Assembly: GCF_000511385.1 (NCBI RefSeq)
Contig: NC_023137.1
Span: forward strand, 2,115,001 to 2,179,000
Length of the DNA: 64,000 bases
Origin: Phaeobacter gallaeciensis DSM 26640
Lineage (GTDB): Bacteria > Pseudomonadota > Alphaproteobacteria > Rhodobacterales > Rhodobacteraceae
Reading direction: 5' to 3'
The notes beneath the pieces are model-generated. The model had not been told where the DNA came from, did no database searches, and was given only the letters and a program-made list of their open reading frames with translations. Below, one piece after another: positions 4,658 to 19,323 of this stretch; the first letter of the stretch is position 1, and each line of letters opens with the position of its first letter. The translations under genes and the position numbers were made by a program.

Positions 4658-5524
4658 ATGGCGACCCAACATTCCCGGTCGGCAGCACGCATCATGATGG
4701 CCCCCGCAGTGATCCTGCTTTTGGGTTGGATGCTGGTCCCGCTGACGATGACGCTCTACTTTTCTTTTAAGAAATATTTGCCCCTACGTGGTGGCGACCT
4801 AGGCTGGGTGGGCTTTGATAACTACGCCCGCTTCCTGTCCTCCAGCGCCTTCTGGCCAAGTGTACAAGCAACTCTGGTCATCGTTGGTGGCGTCCTTGCG
4901 ATCACTGTGATCCTCGGTGTGTTTCTTGCCCTGCTGCTCAATCAGCCGATGTGGGGACAGGGGATTGTCCGCATTCTGGTAATCGCGCCGTTCTTCGTGA
5001 TGCCGACGGTATCCGCGCTGGTCTGGAAAAATATGTTCATGGACCCTGTGAATGGTCTCTTCGCGCACCTGTGGAAAGCCTTCGGCGCGGAACCCGTTTC
5101 ATGGCTGTCTGAGGCCTCGTTGCAGTCGATCATCCTGATTGTAAGCTGGCAGTGGCTGCCCTTTGCAACGCTGATCCTGCTGACCGCCATTCAGTCGCTG
5201 GACAGTGAGCAGTTGGAAGCCGCTGAGATGGACGGCGCGCCGCCGGTGGCACGCTTTGGCTACATCACTCTTCCGCACCTGAGCCGCGCCATCACCGTGG
5301 TGGTTCTGATCCAGACGATTTTCCTGCTGTCGATCTTTGCTGAGATCTTCGTCACCACCCAAGGCTCGTTTGGCACCAAGACCCTCACCTACCTGATCTA
5401 TCAGCGCGTTCTGGAGAGCCAGAACGTCGGATTGGGATCCGCCGGTGGTGTCTACGCCATCATCCTCGCCAATATCGTTGCCATCTTCCTGATGCGCATC
5501 GTTGGCAAAAACCTCGACGCATAG
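4658..5524 (+). CDS. smoF: Polyol ABC transporter permease 1
   Basis: 288 aa. The start at 4658 follows GGAG at 4647-4650; a start at 4616 would add a basic unconserved leader. It is a binding-protein-dependent transport permease of the MalF/UgpA type with about six membrane segments. The cytoplasmic EAA loop is visible as EAAEMDGAPPVARFGYITLP, which contacts the ATPase. The next gene (permease 2) starts 9 bp after the stop, consistent with one transcript. The role is the inner-membrane channel for polyols, paired with the product of 5534-6364. Confidence 0.9.
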   Translation: MATQHSRSAARIMMAPAVILLLGWMLVPLTMTLYFSFKKYLPLRGGDLGWVGFDNYARFLSSSAFWPSVQATLVIVGGVLAITVILGVFLALLLNQPMWGQGIVRILVIAPFFVMPTVSALVWKNMFMDPVNGLFAHLWKAFGAEPVSWLSEASLQSIILIVSWQWLPFATLILLTAIQSLDSEQLEAAEMDGAPPVARFGYITLPHLSRAITVVVLIQTIFLLSIFAEIFVTTQGSFGTKTLTYLIYQRVLESQNVGLGSAGGVYAIILANIVAIFLMRIVGKNLDA

Positions 5525-5533
5525 GAGGCCACC

Positions 5534-6364
5534 ATGGCACGAGCCGTTACACCAAGACGCAAAGCCATCAACACGGCGCTGGCCTGGGCTGTCGGGATGC
5601 TGATCTTCTTTCCGATCCTCTGGACCATTCTCACAAGTTTCAAAACCGAAGCTCAGGCGATCAGTGATCCCCCGGTGTTCCTGTTCTTTGACTGGACATT
5701 GGAAAACTACAGTGTCGTGCAGGAACGCTCCGACTATATGCGGTTTCTTTGGAATTCCGTGATCATTGCCGGTGGCTCGACCATTCTTGGTATTATCATC
5801 GCGGTGCCTGCTGCTTGGTCGATGGCCTTTGTGCCCTCCAAGCGAACAAAGGATATCCTGCTGTGGATGCTGTCGACCAAGATGCTACCAGCTGTCGGCG
5901 TCCTCTACCCGATCTACATCCTGTTCATCAAAATGGGCCTGCTGGACAATCGCTTTGGTCTGGTTGTGGTGCTGATGCTGATCAACCTGCCGATCATTGT
6001 CTGGATGCTTTACACCTACTTCAAGGAAATCCCTGGTGAGATCCTTGAGGCGGCGCGCATGGATGGTGCCACGCTAAAGGAAGAGATCCTCTATGTGCTG
6101 ACCCCAATGGCCATCCCCGGAATCGCCTCCACCCTCCTGCTGAACATCATTCTCGCCTGGAACGAAGCCTTCTGGACACTGAACCTGACCGCAGCCAAGG
6201 CCGCACCGCTGACCGCATTCATCGCCAGCTATTCCAGCCCCGAAGGCCTGTTCTACGCCAAGCTGTCAGCAGCTTCGACAATGGCCATCGCGCCGATCCT
6301 CATCCTTGGCTGGTTCAGCCAGAAACAACTTGTCAGCGGCCTGACTTTCGGCGCCGTGAAATAA
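5534..6364 (+). CDS. smoG: Polyol ABC transporter permease 2
   Basis: 276 aa, MalG/UgpE-type permease with six predicted membrane helices and the EAA loop [20 protein letters not shown]. The start is preceded by AGGAGG at 5523-5528. It forms the heterodimeric channel with the previous gene product. Gene order and spacing (12 bp to the ATPase gene) support the same operon. The family is certain; the polyol substrate is taken from the two polyol dehydrogenases downstream. Confidence 0.9.
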
Positions 6365-6375
6365 GGAAGACACCC

Positions 6376-7380
6376 ATGGGACAGATCAAACTTGAAAGCG
6401 TGACCAAGAATTTTGGCCCCGTTGAGGTCATCCCGCCGCTGGACCTGACCATTGAAGATGGCGAATTCACCGTCTTTGTCGGCCCGTCCGGTTGTGGCAA
6501 ATCCACGTTGCTGCGCCTGATCGCGGGTCTGGAGGACATCACCTCCGGCACCATCCGCATTGACGGGCAGGATGCAACCGACATCCCCCCGGCGAAACGG
6601 GGGCTGGCGATGGTATTTCAATCCTATGCGCTCTATCCGCATATGTCGGTGCGCAAGAACATCGCCTTTCCGATGAAAATGGCCGGTATCCCCGCGGATG
6701 AACAGAAACGCAGGATTGATAATGCTGCCGCTGCGCTGAACCTCACCGATTACTTGGATCGCCGCCCGGGCCAGCTGTCGGGTGGCCAGCGCCAGCGGGT
6801 CGCAATCGGTCGGGCCATTGTGCGTGAGCCAGCGGCATTCCTGTTTGACGAGCCCCTCTCGAATCTGGATGCCGCCCTGCGCGTTGGAATGCGGCTGGAG
6901 ATCTCCGAACTGCACAAGCGCCTTGCCACCACCATGATCTACGTGACCCATGATCAGGTCGAGGCGATGACCATGGCGGACAAAATCGTCGTCTTGCAGG
7001 CTGGCGTGATCGAACAGGTCGGCAGCCCGATGGAGCTGTATCGCGCGCCACGTAACGTATTTGTCGCGGGCTTTATCGGATCGCCGAAGATGAACCTTCT
7101 GACCGGTCCGCAGGCCGCGCAGCACGGCGCGACCACCATCGGCATCCGGCCCGAACATCTCAGCATCTCAGAAACGGACGGCATGTGGGCGGGCACCATT
7201 GGTGTCTCCGAACATCTGGGATCCGATACATTTTTCCATGTGCAATGTGACGCCTTTGAGGACCCGCTGACCGTGCGGGCCAGCGGGGAGTTGGATCTGG
7301 GCTACGGCGCGCGGGTATTCCTAACGCCCGACATGACACATCTGCATAGGTTTGGTTCCGACGGGCTGCGGATCGAATGA
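6376..7380 (+). CDS. smoK: Polyol ABC transporter ATP-binding protein
   Basis: 334 aa, MalK/UgpC-type ATPase. Walker [10 protein letters not shown] is at residues 36-44, the ABC signature LSGGQ at 134-138, and Walker B ends in the D158-E159 pair. The C-terminal roughly 100 residues form the TOBE/OB regulatory region, but it is shorter than in MalK (about 370 aa). The TGA stop at 7378-7380 overlaps the ATG of the next gene at 7377 (ATGA), which indicates translational coupling to the dehydrogenase. It energises import by the two preceding permeases. Confidence 0.92.
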
Positions 7381-8150
7381 AACGGCTGAATGGAAAACGC
7401 GCCCTGATCACAGGCGCCGCCCGAGGTATCGGGGCGGCCTTTGCCGAAGTCTATGCGAATGAGGGCGCACGCGTGGTCATCGCCGATATCGATAGTGCCC
7501 GTGCTGAGGCAACTGCGGCGCAAATCGGCGCGGCGGCGATAGCCATAGAGCTGGATGTCACGGATCAGACCAGCATTGACCGCGCCCTCTCCCGCACCGT
7601 TGAAAGCTATGGCGGCCTCGACATTCTGATCAACAACGCTGCTGTATTCACGGCTGCGCCACTGGTAGAGGTGACCCGAGGGGACTATCAGCGCACCTTT
7701 GATATCAATGTGTCCGGTACGTTGTTCATGATGCAGGCCGCAGCGCAACAGATGATCACGCAGGGCACTGGCGGCAAGATTATCAACATGGCCAGTCAGG
7801 CCGGGCGCCGGGGTGAACCGCTGGTGTCCGTCTACTGCGCGACAAAGGCGGCGGTGATCAGCCTCACGCAATCTGCCGGACTGAACCTGATCTCACATGG
7901 CATCAATGTGAACGCCATCGCGCCCGGTGTCGTCGACGGTGAACATTGGGACGGCGTCGATGCTTTTTTTGCCAAATATGAGGGCAAAGCCCCTGGCCAG
8001 AAAAAGGCAGAGGTCGCGCAATCTGTTCCTTACGGACGAATGGGCACCGCAGCAGATCTGACCGGAATGGCCGTCTTTCTGGCCAGCGACGACGCCGATT
8101 ATGTTGTGGCTCAGACCTACAACGTCGATGGCGGCCAATGGATGAGCTGA
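7377..8150 (+). CDS. smoS: SDR polyol dehydrogenase (sorbitol dehydrogenase type)
   Basis: 257 aa classical short-chain dehydrogenase. The cofactor motif TGAARGIG is at residues 12-19, NNA near 87-89, and the catalytic Ser140, Tyr153 and Lys157 are all present (YCATK). An acidic residue after beta-2 (IADID) predicts NAD+ rather than NADP+. In the homologous Rhodobacter operon this position is SmoS, which oxidises sorbitol to fructose and galactitol to tagatose. It is translationally coupled to the ATPase gene. Exact polyol preference is inference. Confidence 0.88.
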
Positions 8151-8179
8151 TGCGGGAACACAGGTGGGAGGCAGCAGCC

Positions 8180-9646
8180 ATGAAACTCTCGAATGACACA
8201 TTGAGCCAGCTGCCCCAGACCATTGGGCGGCCCAGCTATGACCGCGCCGAAATCAGCCCCGGCATCGTCCATATCGGGCTTGGCAATTTCCACCGCGCCC
8301 ATCAGGCATGGTATCTGCATGAGCTGATGCAGCAGGGTCTGGCAATGGACTGGGGCATTATCGGAGCCGGGGTGCGCGCGGCCGATGCAGGAATGCGGGA
8401 TCGGCTACTGGCGCAGGATTGCCTGACAACCCTAATCGAACTGGACCCCACCGGCCGGTCCGCCGAGGTGATCGGGCCGATGATAGATTTCCTGCCGGTC
8501 GAGGATGGCAATGCCAGCCTGATCCGCACCATGGCCAGCCCAGCCATCCGTATCGTTTCGCTGACTGTGACAGAAGGTGGCTATTATCAGGACGCACAGC
8601 ACAAGGGGCTGGACCTCAACCATGATGATATCCAGCATGACATTACCCGGCCCGACCGCCCGCGCACCGTATTCGGTGCCATTGTGGAGGCGCTAAGGTT
8701 GCGCCGGGGTCGTGGCCTGCCCGCCTTTACCGTGCAAAGCTGCGACAACCTTCAGGGTAACGGTAAGATCACCCGCGCTGCAGTGGTGACATTGGCCCAG
8801 CAAACCGACCCGGAGCTTGCCGCATGGATTGATCGAACCGGAGCCTTTCCAAATTCCATGGTGGATTGCATTGTGCCCGCCACCGGTCCTGCTGAGATTG
8901 CTCTGGCCCAGGGTTACGGGATTGAGGACACCGCCCCCGTGACGCATGAGAACTACCGCCATTGGGTCATCGAGGATGAATTTTGCGCCGGACGCCCTCC
9001 TTGGAATCTGGCCGGGGCTATCTTCACCGACAATGTTCACGGCTACGAAAGCATGAAAATCCGCGTGCTGAATGCGGGTCATCAGGTGCTGGCCAACGCG
9101 GGGGAGCTTCTGTCGATCGCAACCATCGCCGATTGTATGAAAGACCCCTTGCTGGCCGATTTTTTCCGCAAGGTTCAGACGGCGGAAATTCTACCACATG
9201 TGACGGCAGTACCCGAAATGGCGTCGGGAGATTACCTCACCTTGATTGAGGCGCGCTTCTCCAATCCGGAAATCCGCGACACCACGCGACGTGTCGCCTA
9301 TGACGGCTCATCGCGCCATCCGGGGTTTGTGCTGCCAATCCTGCGCGATGCTGTGCGAAGCAAGGGTGCAATTGACGGGCTTTGCCTTGTGGAGGCCCTC
9401 TGGGCGCAGATGTGTACCGGGCAGCGAGAGGATGGCAGCGATATCGCGCCAAACGACCCGGATTGGGAGGCCCGCAATTCCGCAGCGGAGCGCGCCCGGA
9501 AAACCCCTGAGACCTGGGTGCAGCAAAGCCAGATCTACGGCGATCTATCAGAGCAGCAAGACGTGGTTGCCCGGTTTTCTCACTGGCTGTCGATGATCCA
9601 AGCGCAGGGTTGCCGCGCGGCGCTTCGTGAATATCTAGGGCACTAA
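8180..9646 (+). CDS. mtlK: Mannitol 2-dehydrogenase (polyol-specific long-chain dehydrogenase)
   Basis: 488 aa from the ATG at 8180, after a GTGGGAGG ribosome site; an upstream in-frame ATG at 8138 overlaps the SDR gene and adds an unconserved 14 residues. The N-terminal Rossmann motif GLGNFHRAHQA is diagnostic for the mannitol dehydrogenase family. The catalytic Lys/Asn/His region appears as KIRVLNAGHQ. The enzyme oxidises D-mannitol to fructose with NAD+ (also arabitol or sorbitol in relatives). It is the last gene of the polyol operon; the next gene converges 51 bp downstream. Confidence 0.93.
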   Translation: MKLSNDTLSQLPQTIGRPSYDRAEISPGIVHIGLGNFHRAHQAWYLHELMQQGLAMDWGIIGAGVRAADAGMRDRLLAQDCLTTLIELDPTGRSAEVIGPMIDFLPVEDGNASLIRTMASPAIRIVSLTVTEGGYYQDAQHKGLDLNHDDIQHDITRPDRPRTVFGAIVEALRLRRGRGLPAFTVQSCDNLQGNGKITRAAVVTLAQQTDPELAAWIDRTGAFPNSMVDCIVPATGPAEIALAQGYGIEDTAPVTHENYRHWVIEDEFCAGRPPWNLAGAIFTDNVHGYESMKIRVLNAGHQVLANAGELLSIATIADCMKDPLLADFFRKVQTAEILPHVTAVPEMASGDYLTLIEARFSNPEIRDTTRRVAYDGSSRHPGFVLPILRDAVRSKGAIDGLCLVEALWAQMCTGQREDGSDIAPNDPDWEARNSAAERARKTPETWVQQSQIYGDLSEQQDVVARFSHWLSMIQAQGCRAALREYLGH

Positions 9647-9697: not shown

Positions 9698-11017
9698 TCA
9701 GCGCGTTGCCCCGTCGACCGGCAGGCCGCTGGGAACCGTGGGAGGAACGAACGAGGCCCGCGCGCGTGCTTTTTCGCCTGTCAGCGCCGTGAGAAATGCG
9801 ACCAGAGCAGCGATATCCTGATCGCTCAGGTCCTGACGCAGATAGATATCGCGGGCCCGCGCCTGACGCGCCATCTCAAACCGGTCCTGCTGCACCACAA
9901 AGTCGGTTTTCGCCAGCCATGGCGCCTCGGGCAGTTTCAGATCCTCCCGCGACCACGCTGCACGGCTCGCAGCAGGATCAAGATGATGCCGGATCATCCG
10001 TTCAAGCGTCGGGAACGCTCCGTTGTGACCATATGGGCCGGTCAGTTCCACATTCCGCAACATAGGCGTGCGAAACCGGTAGGCGTCCGACAGATCATCG
10101 CTTTCTCCCATACGCCCCACATCGCGTGCGTAAGGATCAAACCGACGCGCCCGCCCGGGTCCAAAAGCAGGCAAGCCAAGCGCATAAAACCGCTGATCCG
10201 AAAACAGCGCGCCTGCATGGCACCCGCTACATCCAGCAGAGCCAAAGAACAGATCCGCCCCGGCTTTCTGCTGCGCAGTCAGGGCTGCGTCATTCCCTGC
10301 CAGATAGGCATCAAACGGGCTGTCGATGGATGTGAAATCCTGCACCATGAACTGGGCCAGCGCCTCGGCAATATCGATGATCTGCACATCTTCGGGCGTG
10401 GCAATATGGTCGAAGGCGGCAACGAACGCCTCTCCGTAAGCCCGTACCCCGCGCACCCGTTTTGCGATGATGGGCCAGGCCAGATCAATCCGGTCGCGGG
10501 TGGCCCCTATCACCTCATTCTCACCAACATTACCTGCCATTTCCACGCTGGAGGTCATGGGAAATAAGGACTGCGCAGCCAGCAGCGATTGCAACCCTTT
10601 GGGCAACCATTCCTCCGCCGGGGTGTTGAAACGATTGCCATAGATAGGATCTTGACTGATCCGCCCGTCATGCATCAGCACACGGAGAGATTTTGCTCCG
10701 AGGTTCCAGAGCGCCGGGGCATTGCGCGGCACACGTTTCTGCACCCGGTTTGCGCCGCTACCGGAGAAACGCGCAGGTCCCAGCCCCTCCGCCCCCTCGC
10801 CCAATCCCAGTGACAACCCATCGGAGGTGCCGTGACGCGGATGATGACAGGTGCCACAGCTGATATTTCTGTTCCCCGACAGGATCTTGTCATAAAAGAG
10901 AAAACGCCCCAGTTCCGCCTTCGCCGGATCTACGGGCAAAAAATCACCAGGTCCGAGAGATGGCGGCAGCTGCGGTTCCTCTGCCAGGGCCGCCCCCGTA
11001 CAAAGGCCAATGGTCAT
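9698..11017 (-). CDS. Diheme cytochrome c peroxidase family protein
   Basis: 439 aa from the ATG at 11017. An N-terminal signal peptide (MTIGLCTGAALAEE) sends it to the periplasm. Two c-type heme sites are visible: CGTCH at residues 54-58 and CSGCH at 263-267. The arrangement, with an N-terminal low-potential heme domain and a C-terminal domain, matches bacterial CcpA/MauG-like diheme peroxidases, which reduce H2O2 with electrons from cytochrome c or modify proteins. An alternative GTG start at 11035 would abut the divergent Sel1 start exactly. Neither start has a good ribosome site, so the 5' end is uncertain. It is convergent with mtlK. Confidence 0.85.
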   Translation of the reverse strand: MTIGLCTGAALAEEPQLPPSLGPGDFLPVDPAKAELGRFLFYDKILSGNRNISCGTCHHPRHGTSDGLSLGLGEGAEGLGPARFSGSGANRVQKRVPRNAPALWNLGAKSLRVLMHDGRISQDPIYGNRFNTPAEEWLPKGLQSLLAAQSLFPMTSSVEMAGNVGENEVIGATRDRIDLAWPIIAKRVRGVRAYGEAFVAAFDHIATPEDVQIIDIAEALAQFMVQDFTSIDSPFDAYLAGNDAALTAQQKAGADLFFGSAGCSGCHAGALFSDQRFYALGLPAFGPGRARRFDPYARDVGRMGESDDLSDAYRFRTPMLRNVELTGPYGHNGAFPTLERMIRHHLDPAASRAAWSREDLKLPEAPWLAKTDFVVQQDRFEMARQARARDIYLRQDLSDQDIAALVAFLTALTGEKARARASFVPPTVPSGLPVDGATR

Positions 11018-11035
11018 CACGACACAGGAGAGCAC

Positions 11036-11542
11036 ATGCGCAAGAGATGGAAACCGGTTCTGGTCGCAGTGGCGCTGTGCATGACCAGCCTGACGATGAC
11101 TGCGCCCCTGCCAGCCTGGGCTGAAATCGAACAGGCCCGCGATCTGATGGAGGCCGGGCAGTTTGCGGCGGCGCATGATGCGCTCTGGCCTGCGGCACGA
11201 TCCGGCAATGCAGATGCGGAAGAGTTGATCGGCGTGATGTACGCCATGGGACTGGGCGTTGAGCAAGACGATGTCCGGGCCTTTGAGTGGTACCTGCGCA
11301 GTGCCATGAAGGGACATCCGGGGGCGCAGTCTGGTATCGGGTGGTATTACGAAATCGGCCGTGGCATGCCCGCCCCCGATCTGGTGCGCGCCTATATGTG
11401 GTACACGCTGTCGGCCATCGGCGGTGACCCCGATGCGGCCATCAGCCTGGAAGAGGTGGTCAAGAAGATGACCCCGGCAGAGATCGATAAGGCGCATGTT
11501 CTGGTCGAGGATTACAAGGTCTGGATGTACCCGTTTCGCTAA
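11036..11542 (+). CDS. Sel1-repeat (TPR-like) exported protein
   Basis: 168 aa from the ATG at 11036 with AGGAG just upstream. A signal peptide (MRKRWKPVLVAVALC... ending PAWA) precedes two to three Sel1-like repeats of about 36 residues (GNADAEELIGVMYAMGLGVEQD, GHPGAQSGIGWYYEIGRG). Sel1 repeats are alpha-alpha protein-interaction scaffolds; no enzymatic residues are seen. It is head-to-head with the diheme peroxidase gene with starts 18 bp apart or less, so the two must share a promoter region lying inside each other's 5' coding sequence. A partner or envelope-stress role is inference. Confidence 0.85.
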   Translation: MRKRWKPVLVAVALCMTSLTMTAPLPAWAEIEQARDLMEAGQFAAAHDALWPAARSGNADAEELIGVMYAMGLGVEQDDVRAFEWYLRSAMKGHPGAQSGIGWYYEIGRGMPAPDLVRAYMWYTLSAIGGDPDAAISLEEVVKKMTPAEIDKAHVLVEDYKVWMYPFR

Positions 11543-11600: not shown

Positions 11601-12659
11601 TCAATTCAGATCTGCCGCGCGCGCCGCGTTGACGTCGGCTTCTGCTTCGGCCACGGCCTCCGTCAATGCAGTGAAGATTTCATCACCACGGGTTACATTG
11701 GATTTGAACCAGTCGTAGACCGGCGCGGCGGCGGATTTGAAGGCGGCTTTCTGATCAGGCGTCGGCACATAGAGATCGCCGCCACCCGCGACAAAATCCT
11801 CATAGGCCTGGATCGACTTGCGCTTGGGTGAAGCAAACGTCGCCTGCTGCAGCGCATAGAACCCGTCCACGACGACCTGACGCATATCCTCCGGCATATC
11901 CATGAAGGTCTTGTTCGACATCCACCACAGCGCGCCCATATAGGCATGGCCATCCAGCGTCACATATTGCAGGCCAGCATCCGGGAACTTCATCCCCATG
12001 ATATCGGTGATTCCGTTTTTGGAGCCTTCCACCACCCCGGTCTGGAATGAGGTGAACAGCTCAGGCCATGGGATCGGGGTTGGGGAGGCCCCAAGCGCTT
12101 TCACCAGTTCCTGCGGCAGGTCGGCAACCACGGTACGGATCTTCAGACCTTCCATGTCGGCAGGTTCCGCCACCCGCCGCTTAGTATTCGCAAAGTTCCG
12201 CCAGCCGCCGGTGTTGCCGATGGTCATCAGACGGATCGCATCGCCGGAATCCTCCAGCGCCATCTGGCGCATGGCACGGGTAAAATCACCCGAAAGAACG
12301 TGTTCGGCGATCCGGTCGTCGGCCATCAGATAGGGCAGATCGAGCACCTGAACATAGGGAAACAGCCCCGATGCCCCGCCAGAGGTAGAGATATAGACGT
12401 CAATCGAGCCGTCGGCGACGCCCTGTAAACATTCCGCCCCGTTGGAGCAAAGCTGGGTGCCGATGAACAGCTCAACTTCGATTGCGCCATTGGAGGCGGC
12501 CTCGACGTAGTTCTTGAACACCACCAGACCGTCGTAGTCTTCATCGTTCTCGTTGGAATTCGCGGTTGCACGGATCTTGTAGTCTGCCGCATAAGCCGAC
12601 AGGGCTGTCCCTGCCATCAGGGCTGACAGGGCCACTGTCTTTGCCAATTTCCTGAGCAT
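11601..12659 (-). CDS. TRAP transporter solute receptor, DctP family (candidate sulfosugar importer)
   Basis: 352 aa with a signal peptide (MLRKLAKTVALSALMAGTALSAYA), preceded by AGGAGAAACG. The DctP/TAXI-type fold is shown by segments such as LKIRTVVADLPQELVKALGASPTPIPWPELFTSFQTGVVEG, in which the conserved arginine (KIRT) in DctP proteins binds a ligand carboxylate. A sulfonate could take that place. It is the last gene of a six-gene operon led by an SsuD/SmoC-like monooxygenase, so the ligand is probably that enzyme's substrate. The ligand is inferred from context only. Confidence 0.88.
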   Translation of the reverse strand: MLRKLAKTVALSALMAGTALSAYAADYKIRATANSNENDEDYDGLVVFKNYVEAASNGAIEVELFIGTQLCSNGAECLQGVADGSIDVYISTSGGASGLFPYVQVLDLPYLMADDRIAEHVLSGDFTRAMRQMALEDSGDAIRLMTIGNTGGWRNFANTKRRVAEPADMEGLKIRTVVADLPQELVKALGASPTPIPWPELFTSFQTGVVEGSKNGITDIMGMKFPDAGLQYVTLDGHAYMGALWWMSNKTFMDMPEDMRQVVVDGFYALQQATFASPKRKSIQAYEDFVAGGGDLYVPTPDQKAAFKSAAAPVYDWFKSNVTRGDEIFTALTEAVAEAEADVNAARAADLN

Positions 12660-12706
12660 TCGTTTCTCCTCCTGTTGCTCTTTTTATTCTGGGTATTTGG
12701 TAGTCC

Positions 12707-14182
12707 TTAGTTCAGAAATCCGGTCAATCGCGGAATGGTCAGCGAGATGGCCGGAACAAAGGTGATCAGAAAGATCACCGCTATTTCAATCGCCAGAAAC
12801 GGCAGGATCGCCTTGGCAATGGTGGTGACACGCTCCTGCGAGACGGCAGCGGCCACAAATAACACCAATCCCATGGGTGGGGTCGCAAGACCGACCGTCA
12901 GGTTCACACACATGATGATGGCAAAATGCACCGATTCAACGCCGAGATCCGTGAACACCGGCCCAAGGATTGGACCAAGGATGATGATCGCAGGTCCTGC
13001 ATCCAGAAACATGCCAACAACAAACAGAAGCAGATTGATCAGGAACAGCAGGATCAGCGGGTTTTCCGACAGCGTCAGAATGAAATCCGCCAGTTGCTCC
13101 GGCGCGTGGCTGAGGCTGACGACGGTCTTGAACGACATCGCAGCGCCAACCAGCAGCAGTACCACCGCCGAGGTGAACCCGGCGCGCGAAAACACCTGTG
13201 GCAGGTCTGCCAGGCGCATTGATCCTAGTACCAGAAAGCTGATCAACAGCGCGTAAGCGACCGCTACAGCGGCGGCCTCTGTCGGGGTGAAGACGCCCGC
13301 GAGAATGCCGCCAAGGATCAGGACTGGCGTTTGTAATGGCACCACGGCCCGTTTGCAGATGGTGCGAAACGCAGGGCTGACAACGCGGCGCAACCCCAGC
13401 ATCAGCCCATGGGCAAACAGCACCGCCCCAAGGAAGGCAAGCCATTTCATCTGCGCCCCGGCCCCCTCGCCCAGTGGCACAAACTGCATCAGCAGCAGAC
13501 CAAGGTTCAGCCGCACCAGCCCAAAAGAGAACCAGCGCTCCATCGCCCCAATCTCGACCGTGTCAAACACCACCCGCCGCGCAGCGGGCAGCTCATAGCG
13601 ATCCGCCATGGCGCGGACCATAACCATCAAGCCAACGCCCACCAGAATACCCGGCACGATGCCCGCCAGGAAAAGCGCCGCGACGCTTTCGCCCATCACA
13701 TAGGCATAGATGATCATAATGCCTGAGGGTGGAATGATCGGCCCAATCACCGAGCTAGCAGCGGTCACGGCCGCCGCGAATTTCCGGCTGTAGCCCTCGC
13801 GCTCCATCGCAGGGATCAGCATTGAGCCAAGCGCCGAGGTATCAGCAACTGCCGACCCTGAAAGTCCGGCAAAAAGGATCGAGGACAGAATATTAACCTG
13901 CGCCAGCCCGCCGCGCAGATGCCCCATCAGGGCCTGCGAGAACTCAACCAGCCGTAGAGTGATGCCGCCCCGGTTCATCAGCTCCCCCGCGAGCATGAAG
14001 AACGGAATTGCCATCAGGGGAAAGCTGTCCATCCCGTTGTAAAGATTGCGATACAGCAGCGTCAGATCGCGTTCTTGCCCATTCAGCCACAGGAGAGCGC
14101 CAGGGGCTGCCAAAAGGCAGAAAAAGACCGGTAAACCAATCAGGAGAAGGAACAGAAACAGCGGCAGGAACCAGATCAACAT
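12707..14182 (-). CDS. TRAP transporter large permease DctM
   Basis: 491 aa, about 12 membrane helices, DctM family (ITT superfamily; GLSGSAVADTSALGSMLIPAM and GIMIIYAYVMGESVAALFLAGI are characteristic). The ATG at 14182 overlaps the dctQ stop as TGATG (a GTG three bases earlier is an alternative), implying coupled translation. A longer central insertion (roughly residues 200-260) distinguishes it from the typical 425-aa DctM. It uses the sodium gradient to import the ligand delivered by the receptor encoded at 11601-12659. Confidence 0.92.
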   Translation of the reverse strand: MLIWFLPLFLFLLLIGLPVFFCLLAAPGALLWLNGQERDLTLLYRNLYNGMDSFPLMAIPFFMLAGELMNRGGITLRLVEFSQALMGHLRGGLAQVNILSSILFAGLSGSAVADTSALGSMLIPAMEREGYSRKFAAAVTAASSVIGPIIPPSGIMIIYAYVMGESVAALFLAGIVPGILVGVGLMVMVRAMADRYELPAARRVVFDTVEIGAMERWFSFGLVRLNLGLLLMQFVPLGEGAGAQMKWLAFLGAVLFAHGLMLGLRRVVSPAFRTICKRAVVPLQTPVLILGGILAGVFTPTEAAAVAVAYALLISFLVLGSMRLADLPQVFSRAGFTSAVVLLLVGAAMSFKTVVSLSHAPEQLADFILTLSENPLILLFLINLLLFVVGMFLDAGPAIIILGPILGPVFTDLGVESVHFAIIMCVNLTVGLATPPMGLVLFVAAAVSQERVTTIAKAILPFLAIEIAVIFLITFVPAISLTIPRLTGFLN

Positions 14183-14772
14183 CACTCAGCCCCTCCGATG
14201 CTCATCCCCGGACGCTCCGGCAGGCGATCCCCGTGGCCGAACAACCGCACGATGCGTTCCAGGATCAATTCGATATTGACCAGAATCAGCAGTCCAAGAC
14301 CCACCAGCAGGGACAACATCATCCAGCTGCGCGGCACCCGGAACCAACTGTCGAGTCCAAGTGAGGTCGGCAGGTAGAGTGAGGCCGTGGCAAAGCGCCC
14401 GCCAAGCCCCGTGACCTCCTTGTAGCCGATCTGGAGCCCCACGATCAGCACGGTCAGGCCAATCAGCAATAGCAGCAGCTGCAAGAGATGAAACAGCCAG
14501 CCGCGCAAGAGCGAGTCGACAACGTCAATCGCAACAAAGCCGCCGCTGCGCAATGCAGTAGGCGCCATCAGGCCTGTCATCCACAACATGCAGAACCGCG
14601 CCGCTTCGTCCGGCCAAGGCAAGGCACTGCCCAGAACATAGCGAAAGAACACTTGAATAAGGATCGCCAGAACCATCAGGCCAATGGCAAAAACGCCCAC
14701 CCAACGACCGGCTGCAAGCAGGCCGGTGTTGAGCGGGCGCAGTATATTCAGGACAGATAAAACTGCCGTCAT
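14182..14772 (-). CDS. TRAP transporter small permease DctQ
   Basis: 196 aa with four predicted membrane helices. The motif LPWPDEAARFCMLWMTGLMAP is characteristic of DctQ. The start at 14772 follows the strong ribosome site GGGGAGGAGAG; an in-frame extension to 14823 is not conserved-looking. It forms the membrane complex with DctM. The gap to the flavin reductase stop at 14831 is only 58 bp, so it belongs to the same operon. Confidence 0.9.
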   Translation of the reverse strand: MTAVLSVLNILRPLNTGLLAAGRWVGVFAIGLMVLAILIQVFFRYVLGSALPWPDEAARFCMLWMTGLMAPTALRSGGFVAIDVVDSLLRGWLFHLLQLLLLLIGLTVLIVGLQIGYKEVTGLGGRFATASLYLPTSLGLDSWFRVPRSWMMLSLLVGLGLLILVNIELILERIVRLFGHGDRLPERPGMSIGGAE

Positions 14773-14830
14773 CGCGTCTCTCTCCTCCCCTTGTGCCGCC
14801 CCGACCTCCCTCGGCGCGGACAACCTACCG

Positions 14831-15355
14831 CTAGCTTGAGGCGGCGATCTGGCCCATCTGACCCTTGTAGAATGTCAGCGCATCCCCTTCTTCGCGCATG
14901 GTTGCGCGGTCCACATGTCCCAGCACGATGGCGTGGTCCCCTCCATCATGGATGGCTGAGCGGGTGCATTCGAAACGCGCCAGACAGTTCTCCAACAGCG
15001 GCACACCATCCTCGTTCTGCGAAAGCTGCAAATGGTTCAGCCCAAAAGCATCTTTTGCGACCTGCCAACACAAATCATCCTGATCCGCCGCCAATACATG
15101 GATGGCGTAATGGCGGGCTTCCTCAAAATAGGGAAAGCGGCGCGAGTTGCGGTCCGGCGACCACAGCACCAGCGGCGGCGTCAGCGAAACCGAGGTAAAA
15201 CTGTTGGCGGTGATCGCCACCACGCCCTGCTCGCAGGCTGCCGTCACAATGGTCACGCCCGTCGCGAAGCGACCGAAGGCATCGCGCAGCAGCCGGGTAT
15301 TGTCAGCCGCCGGGACAAAGCTGTGTTTGCCCTGCCCCGCATGCACAGACATCAT
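14831..15355 (-). CDS. Flavin reductase (FMN reductase partner of the monooxygenase)
   Basis: 174 aa of the flavin reductase-like/HpaC-RutF family (FATGVTIVTA, AITANSFTSVSLTPPLVLW, HDGGDHAIVLGHV). These enzymes reduce FMN with NAD(P)H and hand it to two-component monooxygenases. The start overlaps the end of the aldo-keto reductase gene. Gene order flavin reductase, AKR, monooxygenase is that of smoA-smoB-smoC in Agrobacterium, so this is a SmoA candidate. A second paralogue is encoded at 33437-33937 but has no monooxygenase beside it. Confidence 0.85.
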   Translation of the reverse strand: MMSVHAGQGKHSFVPAADNTRLLRDAFGRFATGVTIVTAACEQGVVAITANSFTSVSLTPPLVLWSPDRNSRRFPYFEEARHYAIHVLAADQDDLCWQVAKDAFGLNHLQLSQNEDGVPLLENCLARFECTRSAIHDGGDHAIVLGHVDRATMREEGDALTFYKGQMGQIAASS

Positions 15356-16242
15356 GCAACCTCCCGGCCCAATGCCGCCTCATAGAGTTTGAACCAGGTC
15401 GGGCGATCCAGCTCGACCTTCAGCGCGTCGGAGGCCTGCTTGATCCGCTCCAGATTATTGGTGCCCAGCACCGGCAGGATTTGCGCCGGATGCCGCAGTA
15501 GGAAGGCTATGGCAACCGCGGCGCGGTCCACGCCCTGCGCTGCGGCAATTGCATCCAGCCGTTCGGCCAGTTGGCCACTACCGGTCATTAAGCCTCCGCC
15601 ACCAAGCGGCGACCAGGCCATCAGCGGATGGCCGTGCCGTTGATGAAACGCCAGGTCCCCATTGGTGAAGGGGTTGATTTCGGACAAAGACAGTTCGATC
15701 TGATTGGTCGCCAGCGGCGTCGTCATCGCTGATTGCAGCAACTCCCAATCCCTGGGGCGGAAGTTCGACACCCCCACCGCGCGCAGTTTGCCTGCGGCGA
15801 CCAGATCATCCAACACTCGACCCGTTTCAACGTGATCCATCAACGGATCCGGGCGGTGGATCAACAGCAGGTCGATGTGGTCAATGCCCATCTCAGACAG
15901 CGAGGTTTCCACCGACCGGGTGATATGCGCCGCGGATGTGTCATAGTGTTTGACCTTCGCATCCGCATAGCGCCCCACGGGCGCAACGATATCGCATTTG
16001 GTCACGATCTCCATCTGATCCAGCAGTGCCGGATTGGCCTTCAGCGCCTGTCCCAAAATCCCCTCAGCCGTGTACCCGCCATAGATATCCGCCTGATCAA
16101 AGGTGGTGATGCCCTGCGCCAGACAGGCCTCGATCTTGGCCTCAACATGAGCGGTCGATGTATCGCTGTCATCGCCCAGACGCCACATGCCATAGACCAG
16201 ACGGCTGAAATCCAGCCCTTCTGCGATCTTGATACGTTCCAT
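15352..16242 (-). CDS. Aldo-keto reductase (SmoB-like candidate)
   Basis: 296 aa TIM-barrel AKR of the YdhF/AKR11-12-like group. The catalytic tetrad can be read as Asp49 and Tyr54 (FDQADIY), Lys82 (VTK) and His129 (LLIH). The ATG at 16242 overlaps the upstream monooxygenase stop as TGATG. If the cluster runs the oxygenolytic sulfoquinovose pathway, this enzyme would reduce 6-oxoglucose (glucose 6-aldehyde), the product of desulfonation, to glucose with NADPH, as SmoB does. Family is certain; substrate is inference from order and partners. Confidence 0.88.
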   Translation of the reverse strand: MERIKIAEGLDFSRLVYGMWRLGDDSDTSTAHVEAKIEACLAQGITTFDQADIYGGYTAEGILGQALKANPALLDQMEIVTKCDIVAPVGRYADAKVKHYDTSAAHITRSVETSLSEMGIDHIDLLLIHRPDPLMDHVETGRVLDDLVAAGKLRAVGVSNFRPRDWELLQSAMTTPLATNQIELSLSEINPFTNGDLAFHQRHGHPLMAWSPLGGGGLMTGSGQLAERLDAIAAAQGVDRAAVAIAFLLRHPAQILPVLGTNNLERIKQASDALKVELDRPTWFKLYEAALGREVA

Positions 16243-17396
16243 CAACGACGTTCTCCATTCCCTAAGGGTGTTGCCGGGGTCGATTGCGGCACCCGGCCAT
16301 ATTCATGCGGCAGTGAGCAGGTTTTCAGATGTGGCATCACCCGCGCCCCGAAATGCCGCGCTTCCTCCAGATGCGGGTAGCCGGACAAGACAAAGGCGCG
16401 AATGCCCATTTTCTGATAGGCTTCCAGCTTGGACATCACCTGATCCGTCGACCCAACCAGAGCCGCACCGCAACCAGACCGCGCACGTCCCACTCCTGTC
16501 CAGAGGTTTGGCTCGATAAACCCGAATTCATCGGCGATATCGCGATTCTTCGCCTGATGTGCGACACCCAGAGAGGTGGCATCCAGCGCGCGATCCCGGA
16601 TGGCCTTGCCCTGCGCATCATCCAGTTTTGAGACGATATGATCAGCATATTCATAGGCCTCAGCCTCGGTGTCGCGCACGATGACATGCACCCGCAGCCC
16701 ATAGTCCAACGTGCGCCCGTAACGCTCCGCAACACTGTGAACAGCCTGCATCCGACCGGCCAGATCTTCCATCTTTTCCGGCCACATCAGATAAACGTCG
16801 CAGTGTTCACCGCAAAGCTCCAGCGCCGACGGAGAGTACCCTCCGAAATACAACAGTGGCCCGCCAGTCTGATAGGGTTTTGCGGGGTCCGTGGTCAGCC
16901 CCTCGAACTGATAGACCTCGCCCTTGTGGTTGATGTCATCCCGGGTCCAGGCTTGTTTCAGGATCTCCACCACCTCGCGCGATCTCTGATATCGGAACGC
17001 GCTGTCCGCTTTCTCGCCTGGAAAATCAGAGGAGATGATATTCACCGTCAACCGCCCCTCCAGCATGTGGTCCAGTGTCGCCAGGGTGCGTGCCAGCATG
17101 ATCGGCTGCATCTCACCGCAGCGTACCGCTGCCAGCATATTGATCCTGTCGGTAATCGGAGCGCAGCCCGCCACAAAACTGAGGGTATCCTGTCCCACCT
17201 GATAAGACGATGGACAGAGGATGTTGCGAAACCCCTGTGCCTCGGCCTCTTTCACGATATCGGAGCAATGCGCCCAGGACGATCGCAGCCCCCCATCCGG
17301 CACGCCAAGAAACTGGTAGTCATCGGAGCAGAGCGCAGCAAACCAAGACACTTCCACCGCATCAAGATCTGCAGATGTTACCGGAACAACGCTCAT
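16242..17396 (-). CDS. SsuD/SmoC-like FMN-dependent sulfonate monooxygenase
   Basis: 384 aa, bacterial luciferase-like (LLM) fold of the alkanesulfonate monooxygenase branch. By alignment to E. coli SsuD the sulfonate-binding residues are retained: Trp205 (YLMW), Arg235 and His237 (LRVH), Arg306 (GRARSG), plus the Tyr in LSGYPHLEE. As I recall, these are numbered Trp206/Arg236/His238/Arg307 in SmoC, a constant offset of one. The SsuD Cys54 position is not Cys. The enzyme would use reduced FMN and O2 to release sulfite from a sulfonate. It is first in the operon, divergent from the GntR gene. Confidence 0.88.
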   Translation of the reverse strand: MSVVPVTSADLDAVEVSWFAALCSDDYQFLGVPDGGLRSSWAHCSDIVKEAEAQGFRNILCPSSYQVGQDTLSFVAGCAPITDRINMLAAVRCGEMQPIMLARTLATLDHMLEGRLTVNIISSDFPGEKADSAFRYQRSREVVEILKQAWTRDDINHKGEVYQFEGLTTDPAKPYQTGGPLLYFGGYSPSALELCGEHCDVYLMWPEKMEDLAGRMQAVHSVAERYGRTLDYGLRVHVIVRDTEAEAYEYADHIVSKLDDAQGKAIRDRALDATSLGVAHQAKNRDIADEFGFIEPNLWTGVGRARSGCGAALVGSTDQVMSKLEAYQKMGIRAFVLSGYPHLEEARHFGARVMPHLKTCSLPHEYGRVPQSTPATPLGNGERR

Positions 17397-17444
17397 CACC
17401 CTCGCCCTCGCTCTTTGCAACTTAACTCTTGCATAGCTCGCGCC

Positions 17445-17458
17445 TTGATGTAGATCAA
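17445..17458. promoter_or_regulatory. Inverted-repeat operator candidate between monooxygenase and GntR genes
   Basis: TTGATGTAGATCAA is an inverted repeat TTGAT-N4-ATCAA in the 101-bp divergent promoter region. A related TATCAA occurs at 17464-17469. Its size fits a GntR/HutC-type operator, and its place allows one regulator to control both directions. Confidence 0.5.
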
Positions 17459-17497
17459 TGGTGTATCAATTTTTTCCGCATCGTGACGATTGGCCTC

Positions 17498-18208
17498 ATG
17501 CCCACCCCTCGCACCTCAGGCACTGCACTGCCCCTTTACCTCCAGATCAGCGAGGCGCTGACCCGTGAGATTGCGGCTGGGAGGCTCGCGGATGGGGAGC
17601 GACTGGCACCAGAACGCCAGTTGGCGCAAACCTATGGAACGACCGTAAGAACTCTGCGCAAATCGCTGTCAGAACTGGAAAAACAAGGAATGCTGGAGCG
17701 GATTCAGGGATCTGGAAACTATGTTCGCACAGCCCAAACCACCCCCAGCGTCTATTCCATGTTTCGCCTGGAACTGCCGACAGGTGGCGGACTGCCAACT
17801 GCGGATATTCTGTCAGTCACGGAATGCGACAAACCCACGGACCTGCCGACCTTCGGCAGCAGCATGCGCGGCACCCGCATCCGCAGACTGCGCTATCTGG
17901 ACAGCACGATCATCGCCGTTGAGGAGATCTGGCTGGATGCCGCAGCGGGTCATGTGGATCCCGCGCAACTGTCTGATTCCCTTTACCGCTATTACCGCCT
18001 GCAGCTGGGGTTCTGGATCAGTCGCGCCGAGGATCGGGTCTCGCTTGGGACAGTCCCCGACTGGGCGCCGGCGCAGTTTACCAAGCCCCCCGGCACCACG
18101 GTTGGGTACATTGAGCGGCTCAGCTGGGCGCAGGATCTGGCCCCGGTTGAGTTTTCACGCACATGGTTTGACACGGAAAGGGCGCTCTACGTACAGCGTC
18201 TCACTTAG
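17498..18208 (+). CDS. GntR-family (HutC/UTRA) transcriptional regulator
   Basis: 236 aa from the ATG at 17498 (GTG at 17483 is an alternative; neither has a strong ribosome site). The N-terminal wHTH covers roughly residues 8-75 (LYLQISEALTREIAAGRL, APERQLAQTYGTTVRTLRKSL), followed by a UTRA effector domain (RTWFDTERALYV at the end). UTRA domains bind small sugars, sugar acids or amines. It is divergent from the monooxygenase operon and 8 bp upstream of the Gfo/Idh/MocA gene, so it probably represses both until the substrate or a pathway sugar is present. Confidence 0.9.
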   Translation: MPTPRTSGTALPLYLQISEALTREIAAGRLADGERLAPERQLAQTYGTTVRTLRKSLSELEKQGMLERIQGSGNYVRTAQTTPSVYSMFRLELPTGGGLPTADILSVTECDKPTDLPTFGSSMRGTRIRRLRYLDSTIIAVEEIWLDAAAGHVDPAQLSDSLYRYYRLQLGFWISRAEDRVSLGTVPDWAPAQFTKPPGTTVGYIERLSWAQDLAPVEFSRTWFDTERALYVQRLT

Positions 18209-18216
18209 GAGGAAAC

Positions 18217-19323
18217 ATGTCCGGACCCACCACCTATGGAATCATCGGCTGCGGCATGATGGGGCAGGAACATCTTCGCAATATTGCCCTGCTGGACAAC
18301 ACGGCAGTTGGCGCGATCTATGAACCGAACGCCGCCATGCGGGAGATTTCGGCTGAACTGGCGCCAGAGGCCGTGTTCATGGACAGCCTTGAAGCGCTGC
18401 TCAACCATCCAGACCTTGATTGCCTGCTGATTGCCAGCCCCAACTTCCGCCACCTGGAACAGCTGGAAGCGCTGGCCGAACGCCGCCCCCTACCGGTATT
18501 GGTGGAAAAACCACTGTTCACCAACCTCGCCGATCTTGGGCGGCTGGACGCCTTTGCCACGCGTTATAAGGCGCCGGTCTGGGTGGCGATGGAGTATCGC
18601 TACATGCCGCCAATTGCCGCCTTCCTGCGTGATGTCGAAGCAGCCACCGGCGGAATTAAAATGCTAAGCATCCGCGAACATCGGTTCCCATTTCTGGAAA
18701 AGGTTGATGACTGGAACCGCTTCGACGCCAAATCCGGCGGCACCTTTGTTGAGAAATGCTGCCATTTCTTCGATCTGATGCGGTTGGCCCTGGGATCAGA
18801 GCCAGTCCGAGTGATAGCCAGCGGGGGGCAGGACGTGAACCATCTGGATGAACGCTACAGCGATGGCACCCCCGATATTCTCGACAATGGTTATGTGATT
18901 GTGGACTTTAGCTGTGGCGCGCGCGCCATGCTGGAACTCTGCATGTTTGCCGAAGGGGCGGAGTACCAGGAGGAGGTCGCAGCCATTGGCCCACGTGGCA
19001 AGATCGAAGCCTTCGTACCCGGCCCGGGCCGGTTCTGGCCCGCCCATCTGGGCGCGCCGCCGCTGCCGAAGCTGGTGACCTCGCCACGCAGCCCCAAAGG
19101 TCCCGAAACACAAAAAATCCCGGTTGATCCCACGCTTCTTGAGGCCGGAGATCACAATGGATCCACCTTCTATCAGCATCAGAAGTTTCTTCAGTTGGTG
19201 CGCAGGGAACGCAGCTCTGCCGAGGTCAGCCTTCATGACGGGAGAATGGCAGTTCTGATGGGAATCGCGGCACAGATCTCCATCAATGAGCGACGCAGCG
19301 TAGAGATATCAGAGCTGATCTGA
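18217..19323 (+). CDS. Gfo/Idh/MocA-family NAD(P)-dependent protein (candidate NAD+-dependent sulfoquinovosidase)
   Basis: 368 aa. An N-terminal Rossmann fold (GIIGCGMMGQEHLRNI, residues 8-23), the family EKP motif (VEKPLF, about residue 107), and a C-terminal alpha/beta domain containing EKCCHFFDLMRLA. The start follows GGAGGAAAC. Most members are sugar or inositol dehydrogenases, but some lineages are NAD+-dependent glycosidases (GH109, and the sulfoquinovosidase family GH188/SqgA). No GH31 sulfoquinovosidase is present in this cluster, so a glycosidase role would complete the pathway. This is a hypothesis; ordinary dehydrogenase activity is the alternative. Confidence 0.82.
   Translation: MSGPTTYGIIGCGMMGQEHLRNIALLDNTAVGAIYEPNAAMREISAELAPEAVFMDSLEALLNHPDLDCLLIASPNFRHLEQLEALAERRPLPVLVEKPLFTNLADLGRLDAFATRYKAPVWVAMEYRYMPPIAAFLRDVEAATGGIKMLSIREHRFPFLEKVDDWNRFDAKSGGTFVEKCCHFFDLMRLALGSEPVRVIASGGQDVNHLDERYSDGTPDILDNGYVIVDFSCGARAMLELCMFAEGAEYQEEVAAIGPRGKIEAFVPGPGRFWPAHLGAPPLPKLVTSPRSPKGPETQKIPVDPTLLEAGDHNGSTFYQHQKFLQLVRRERSSAEVSLHDGRMAVLMGIAAQISINERRSVEISELI

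Follow-up and report, generated by a model that had tools for sequence, protein, structure and literature searches.

A predicted sulfoquinovose monooxygenase cluster with a TRAP importer in Phaeobacter gallaeciensis, and the exported Sel1-repeat and di-heme proteins encoded beside it

The 64,000-nucleotide stretch analyzed here (the window; Phaeobacter gallaeciensis DSM 26640, contig NC_023137.1, positions 2,115,001 to 2,179,000) carries a gene cluster that an earlier reading of the sequence, hereafter the original prediction, had assigned to sulfoquinovose desulfonation fed by a tripartite ATP-independent periplasmic (TRAP) importer. It had described an operon of a monooxygenase, an aldo-keto reductase, a flavin reductase, and dctQMP, divergent from GntR and Gfo/Idh/MocA genes, and a check of the open reading frames (ORFs) in the 64-kb window together with Pfam searches showed this arrangement to be real. 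All eight genes were intact at the predicted positions, with Pfam matches to the expected families (Bac_luciferase, Aldo_ket_red, Flavin_Reduct, DctQ, DctM, DctP, GntR plus UTRA, and GFO_IDH_MocA). The genes smoC, smoB, smoA, dctQ, dctM, and dctP form a minus-strand run, with 4-nt overlaps at smoC/smoB, smoB/smoA, and dctQ/dctM, while gntR and sqgA lie divergently on the plus strand (Table 1). The conserved block extends past dctP into a sel1-repeat gene and a di-heme gene, neither of which was part of the original prediction. The smoC start proposed earlier, at 17396, is preferred, as it agrees with the N terminus of the solved homologues. For dctQ, the ATG at 14772 is probably the start, the mechanical ORF running to 14823; for gntR, the ATG at 17498 is more likely than the mechanical TTG at 17429, since the latter would put an operator-like site inside the gene.

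Table 1. Genes and the operator-like site of the cluster, in window coordinates
Feature	Position	Strand	Basis
smoC-type FMNH2-dependent sulfoquinovose monooxygenase (predicted)	16242..17396	-	bit scores to 7olf/7oh2, tree
smoB-type aldo-keto reductase (6-dehydroglucose to glucose; predicted)	15352..16245	-	bit scores to 7bbz/7bby
smoA-type flavin reductase	14831..15355	-	PF01613, PDB 4xhy match, kept position
dctQ, TRAP small membrane subunit	14182..14772	-	PF04290
dctM, TRAP large membrane subunit	12707..14185	-	PF06808; TIGR00786 above its cut-off
dctP, TRAP solute receptor, proposed ligand sulfoquinovosyl glycerol / sulfoquinovose	11601..12659	-	Pfam DctP
sel1, exported Sel1-repeat protein, 168 aa, tail-to-tail with dctP	11036..11542	+	
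exported di-heme protein, cytochrome c peroxidase (CCP)/MauG superfamily, head-to-head with sel1	9698..11017	-	PF03150, two CXXCH
operator-like site TTGATGTAGATCAATGGTGTATCAA between smoC and gntR	17445..17469	.	
gntR, GntR/UTRA regulator	17498..18208	+	PF00392 + PF07702; ortholog in 80/80 related loci
sqgA, predicted cytoplasmic GH188 NAD+-dependent sulfoquinovosidase	18217..19323	+	PDB bit scores, contact residues

In a PDB search, the monooxygenase scored 712 bits against 7olf and 687 against 7oh2, compared with 198 against MsuD (7jv3) and 189 against SsuD (1m41). We then built a maximum-likelihood tree of 109 rows, namely, the window protein, four PDB fragments, and 104 of 106 loci, the other two being excluded for an internal stop or short length. 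A branch supported 100/100 parts SsuD and MsuD from 7olf, 7oh2, the window protein, and all loci, so that the monooxygenase stands apart in the very tree that the original prediction had set as its refutation test. The aldo-keto reductase matched 7bbz/7bby with 427 bits, twice the score of the next solved aldo-keto reductase (207 bits). Judged by sequence, the two proteins are thus a monooxygenase of the SmoC clade and a 6-dehydroglucose reductase of the SmoB type, 7olf and 7oh2 being what we take to be Rhizobium/Agrobacterium SmoC and 7bby and 7bbz presumably SmoB. The flavin reductase (PF01613) is a FerA/HpaC-type enzyme, with 4xhy as its best PDB match at 137 bits in a comparison that held no Agrobacterium SmoA, and the place of smoA between smoB and dctQ is kept across related loci.

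The Gfo/Idh/MocA protein scored 537 bits against 8zn9 and 358 and 348 bits against SqgA 8qc3 and 8qc2, the next match being at 82 bits, and by these scores it belongs to the SqgA sequence clade of GH188. In the main-text portion covered of Kaur et al. 2023 (JACS; PMC10755693), to whom the SqgA complexes 8QC2 and 8QC3 are credited, the sulfoquinovose contacts of ArSqgA are given as K107, Y136, R166, L170, K172, E189, H193, and H321. All eight are kept in the window protein (K98, Y127, R156, L160, K162, E179, H183, and H313), with an offset of 13 between the numbering of the paper and the chain that we infer from the contact motifs; by the same numbering, the extra contact Glu163 falls one position off E154 of the window protein. 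No GH31 match was found in the P. gallaeciensis genome by a search that, as a control, matched GH31 in 6 of 14 genomes. The "different glycosidase" of the original prediction is therefore real and is a GH188 enzyme. That portion of PMC10755693 describes GH188 as near-universal in Roseobacter sulfo-SMO clusters, and its Fig. 5 legend includes Phaeobacter inhibens A0A135IMB2 and Dinoroseobacter shibae among the cluster representatives. The role of GH188 in these clusters is thus already known, and the window cluster is very likely the same cluster or an orthologue. Since no signal peptide is apparent by eye in the SqgA sequence, the glycoside would be imported intact before cleavage.

It is very improbable that the cluster instead handles another sulfonate (an alkanesulfonate, or a sulfosugar such as sulfofucose) by SsuD-like chemistry: SsuD TIGR03565 is indeed the best NCBIfam model for the monooxygenase (248 bits, below its cut-off of 518) and the specificity of SmoC for sulfoquinovose is a prediction from sequence, but the tree separates the enzyme from SsuD and MsuD, the reductase is of the SmoB type, and the adjoining GH188 protein keeps the residues by which ArSqgA contacts the sulfonate and hydroxyl groups of bound sulfoquinovose. 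An alkanesulfonate cluster in particular was ruled out by the monooxygenase bit scores and the tree.

The intergenic region between smoC and gntR holds what appears to be a conserved operator-like site, which we count among the new observations. The motif ATTGATAC was present upstream of smoC in 79 of 100 regions. With a motif derived from the same loci as those counted, the 25-base site (up to 4 mismatches) was found in 58 of 63 TRAP-type loci, 20 of 37 other SmoC loci, and none of 18 loci without SmoC. Allowing up to 3 mismatches, the P. gallaeciensis genome has a single copy of it, and a reversed control gave no match. The site is likely read by the adjacent GntR/UTRA protein.

From at least 527 loci found in named genomes, we took the best 80 and surveyed their neighborhoods. 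SmoC and gntR were present in all 80, smoB in 79, smoA in 78, GH188 in 77, and TRAP genes in 66 (with dctP in reach in 63). All eight genes occurred together in 63 loci, in identical order and on identical strands in every one of them; in this gene-order survey, which the original prediction had proposed, conservation is thus more than expected by chance. A second sample comprised 292 genomes of the order. SmoC was found above 670 bits in 141 of them, after exclusion of 5 of 146 matches that were SsuD-like (206 to 217 bits), DctP in 114, and GH188 at E values up to 1e-60 in 157; across the class, SmoC at E up to 1e-120 was found in 9 of 385 genomes. SmoC and DctP occurred together in 96 of the 292 genomes, SmoC alone in 45, and DctP alone in 18.

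The 18 DctP loci without SmoC (L123 to L140) were alike, with the exception of L137: they carried GH188 at 49 to 54% identity, along with DctP, Sel1, and di-heme genes of the window type. GH188, a PfkB kinase, and a fucose-isomerase-type protein were each encoded in 17 of the 18, a LacD-type aldolase in 16, a mutarotase in 16, and an aldehyde dehydrogenase in 14, some stretches ending early. The isomerase of L140 scored 232 bits against the NCBIfam sulfoquinovose isomerase model, below the cut-off of 700. By gene content, these loci look like sulfo-EMP clusters. In L140, a small exported cytochrome c-like protein (5493-6191; PF00034, weak) is encoded upstream of dctQ.

Conversely, of the 37 SmoC loci without dctP, 15 encoded a receptor of an ATP-binding cassette (ABC) importer like that of locus L064, 3 had dctQ/dctM, and 19 had neither assigned; the L064-type receptor was found in none of the 63 TRAP loci. 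Mapped on the SmoC tree, the presence or absence of dctP changed at least 8 times over 92 rows; the state counts leave out 7 loci whose flanks were cut off or that had dctQM but no dctP. Importer and chemistry are modular and separable, which is new within the literature searched. In L064, the ABC genes are followed by a gene for a PF03601 (Cons_hypoth698) membrane protein (15488-16468), a possible sulfate/sulfite exporter; relatives were found in 11 of the 37 SmoC loci without dctP and in 10 of the 63 with it.

The claim of TRAP uptake was borne out by the identification of all three components. DctP is 99% identical to P. inhibens proteins, and its R154 and R175, the presumed equivalents of the SiaP arginines that would fix an acidic ligand, are invariant across 35 aligned DctP sequences. 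Its ligand would be sulfoquinovosyl glycerol and/or sulfoquinovose, and the occurrence of this DctP next to the genes of two distinct sulfoquinovose pathways favors a ligand of this type, L137 (1 of 18) being against it. The dctP clade could thus serve as a marker for a TRAP route of sulfoquinovose uptake common to two pathways. The one paper found on sulfoquinovose together with TRAP transporters concerns a taurine-respiring gut bacterium. The literature searched describes entry of sulfoquinovose or its glycoside only via an ABC importer, although Liu 2023, Ma 2025, and Sharma 2022 may show TRAP genes.

On the basis of these sequence comparisons, it is highly probable that the locus is a sulfo-SMO (sulfo-ASMO) cluster for sulfoquinovose catabolism of a Phaeobacter-like Roseobacter, equipped with a TRAP importer, as the original prediction had read it from the enzymes and dctQMP. 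DctP, with DctQM, would import sulfoquinovosyl glycerol and/or sulfoquinovose, and cytoplasmic SqgA would free sulfoquinovose with catalytic NAD+, by a mechanism published for the family and assigned here by homology and residues. SmoA would provide FMNH2 for SmoC, which would use O2 to cleave the C-S bond, yielding sulfite and 6-dehydroglucose, and SmoB would convert the latter to glucose. The GntR/UTRA regulator would act at the single conserved site of the divergent promoter region. The following points weigh against this reading. The depositors' names for 7olf, 7oh2, 7bby, and 7bbz are generic, their assignment to SmoC and SmoB being presumptive, and the site counts carry the circularity noted above. 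The predicted DctP structure (mean confidence, pLDDT, 79) gave tied matches to TRAP receptors for ectoine, isethionate, sugar acids, and other ligands, so that the fold is silent on the ligand. Finally, L137 (9255-13341) encodes a DctP at 72% identity with DctQM and has no GH188, SmoC, Sel1, or kinase gene; without GH188 or sulfo-EMP genes, it indicates that the DctP family may not be strictly bound to sulfoquinovose.

Two side observations concern these loci. Adjacent to the L137 TRAP genes is a beta-hydroxyacid dehydrogenase gene whose best NCBIfam model is tartronate semialdehyde reductase, below cut-off. Elsewhere in the P. gallaeciensis genome (C1, around 523478; L122, 1081-2762), genes for a DmsC-family anchor and a 4Fe-4S subunit could encode a candidate sulfite dehydrogenase (SoeBC-like) for the released sulfite.

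The smo cluster of Agrobacterium tumefaciens, reportedly the subject of Sharma et al. 2022, has the same SmoA/SmoB/SmoC enzyme set and chemistry. It differs in having an ABC importer and a GH31 sulfoquinovosidase where dctQMP and GH188 are found here, and the GntR/UTRA regulator is a further difference. The sulfo-SMO (sulfo-ASMO) pathway of that cluster is treated in the covered parts of two reviews (PMC9594981 and PMC12890257), and the pathway itself, including the enzyme set in Roseobacters, is already published: SmoABC with GH188 SqgA, as here, is described in the portion covered of PMC10755693. TRAP genes, Sel1, and the di-heme protein are not mentioned in that main-text portion, figures and supplement aside. 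Sulfoquinovose production is put at about 10 billion tons per year, with Roseobacters among its marine consumers, in the parts of the literature covered.

The survey ties two uncharacterized exported proteins, Sel1 and the di-heme protein, to the putative TRAP route of sulfolipid head-group uptake. Their start codons lie within about 20 bases of each other (the di-heme gene has an alternative GTG start at 11035). Close Sel1 relatives were found in 91 of the 114 DctP genomes and in none of the 178 others, once 2 of 93 matches (G064 and G153; 38 to 40% identity, both without DctP) had been dropped. The di-heme gene was paired with sel1 in all 90 genomes having both; these counts exclude matches under 480 bits, some relative being present in 178 of the 292 genomes. 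A 599-residue ORF (9698-11497) was considered as a single protein, its first 160 residues being antisense to sel1. It was rejected because this antisense part is 38 to 56% identical between loci, compared with 69 to 91% for the sel1 frame, and because sel1 shows coding-type codon divergence.

Sel1 residues W85, Y86, W103, Y104, W122, Y123, and W163 were invariant in 48 aligned sequences. The di-heme protein has its CXXCH motifs at 54 and 263; its conservation line excludes 25 of 67 matches that could not be extended to a clean ORF. It shares two CXXCH motifs and PF03150 with MauG, BthA, and bacterial CCP, and the stretch LRNV..TGPY.HNG with MauG, but it is distant from all of them, no solved member scoring above about 100 bits (di-haem CCPs being the best and MauG reaching 65 bits); among NCBIfam models, it matches a MauG-like one best, below cut-off. 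An exported helical-repeat protein encoded beside a TRAP receptor is also known from the TPR-protein-associated TRAP transporters (TPAT; Treponema Tp0956; portion covered of PMC10942540). Unlike in TPAT, the repeats here are of the Sel1 type, the gene lies on the opposite strand, and there is a di-heme partner, the likeness being one of Sel1 fold and gene neighborhood alone; Tp0956 was not among the 50 matches listed for the Sel1 protein. NCBIfam, Pfam, and the literature searched held no earlier account of the pair with sulfoquinovose, although Liu 2023, Ma 2025, and Sharma 2022 may show it, and as far as that literature goes, the sel1/di-heme companion of the TRAP importer is a new observation.

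As hypotheses only, the pair could be a redox-modifying enzyme with its client or a TPAT-like adaptor. Tentatively, and with the odds clearly against it, Roseobacters may possess a dedicated five-part importer for the sulfolipid head group, made up of DctPQM, a Sel1-repeat protein exported as an adaptor, and a di-heme enzyme resembling MauG, and interchangeable between sulfo-SMO and sulfo-EMP. Either Sel1, with its invariant Trp and Tyr residues, or the receptor would be oxidatively modified by the di-heme enzyme, which would allow proper presentation or release of the receptor in the periplasm. If true, a redox-modified accessory subunit would be a first for a TRAP system within the literature searched.

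There is a sizable chance, if short of even, that the pair is a mere neighbor, kept through shared ancestry of the chromosome segment and unrelated to sulfoquinovose uptake. On the SmoC tree, the pair tracks the TRAP gene, never the reverse, in a mean of 5.3 of 7 independent switches, for which a sign test gives a median p of only 0.0625; sel1 is absent from 23 of the 114 DctP genomes, and the pair starts from a divergent region of its own. Shared ancestry of the segment fits less well with the 18 loci whose downstream pathway differs: 17 of them have this pair next to DctP, and in the sulfo-EMP-type loci the di-heme gene directly adjoins the kinase gene. In 4 genomes, moreover, the pair is distant from dctP or on a separate contig, but none of the 178 genomes lacking DctP has a close Sel1.

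Rather improbable is a role of the di-heme protein as an ordinary periplasmic peroxidase that guards against H2O2 escaping from the SmoA/SmoC flavin system, as its PF03150 domain and its closest PDB matches would allow. We set this role aside because the gene also occurs without SmoC, namely, in 17 of the 18 loci lacking the flavin monooxygenase, and because just 1 of 20 SmoC loci lacking DctP had it; in addition, the SmoA/SmoC flavin enzymes are cytoplasmic, whereas the di-heme protein is exported.

Beyond the di-heme gene, window positions 7377-9646 hold genes for a short-chain dehydrogenase/reductase and a mannitol dehydrogenase, probably the last genes of a separate polyol operon.

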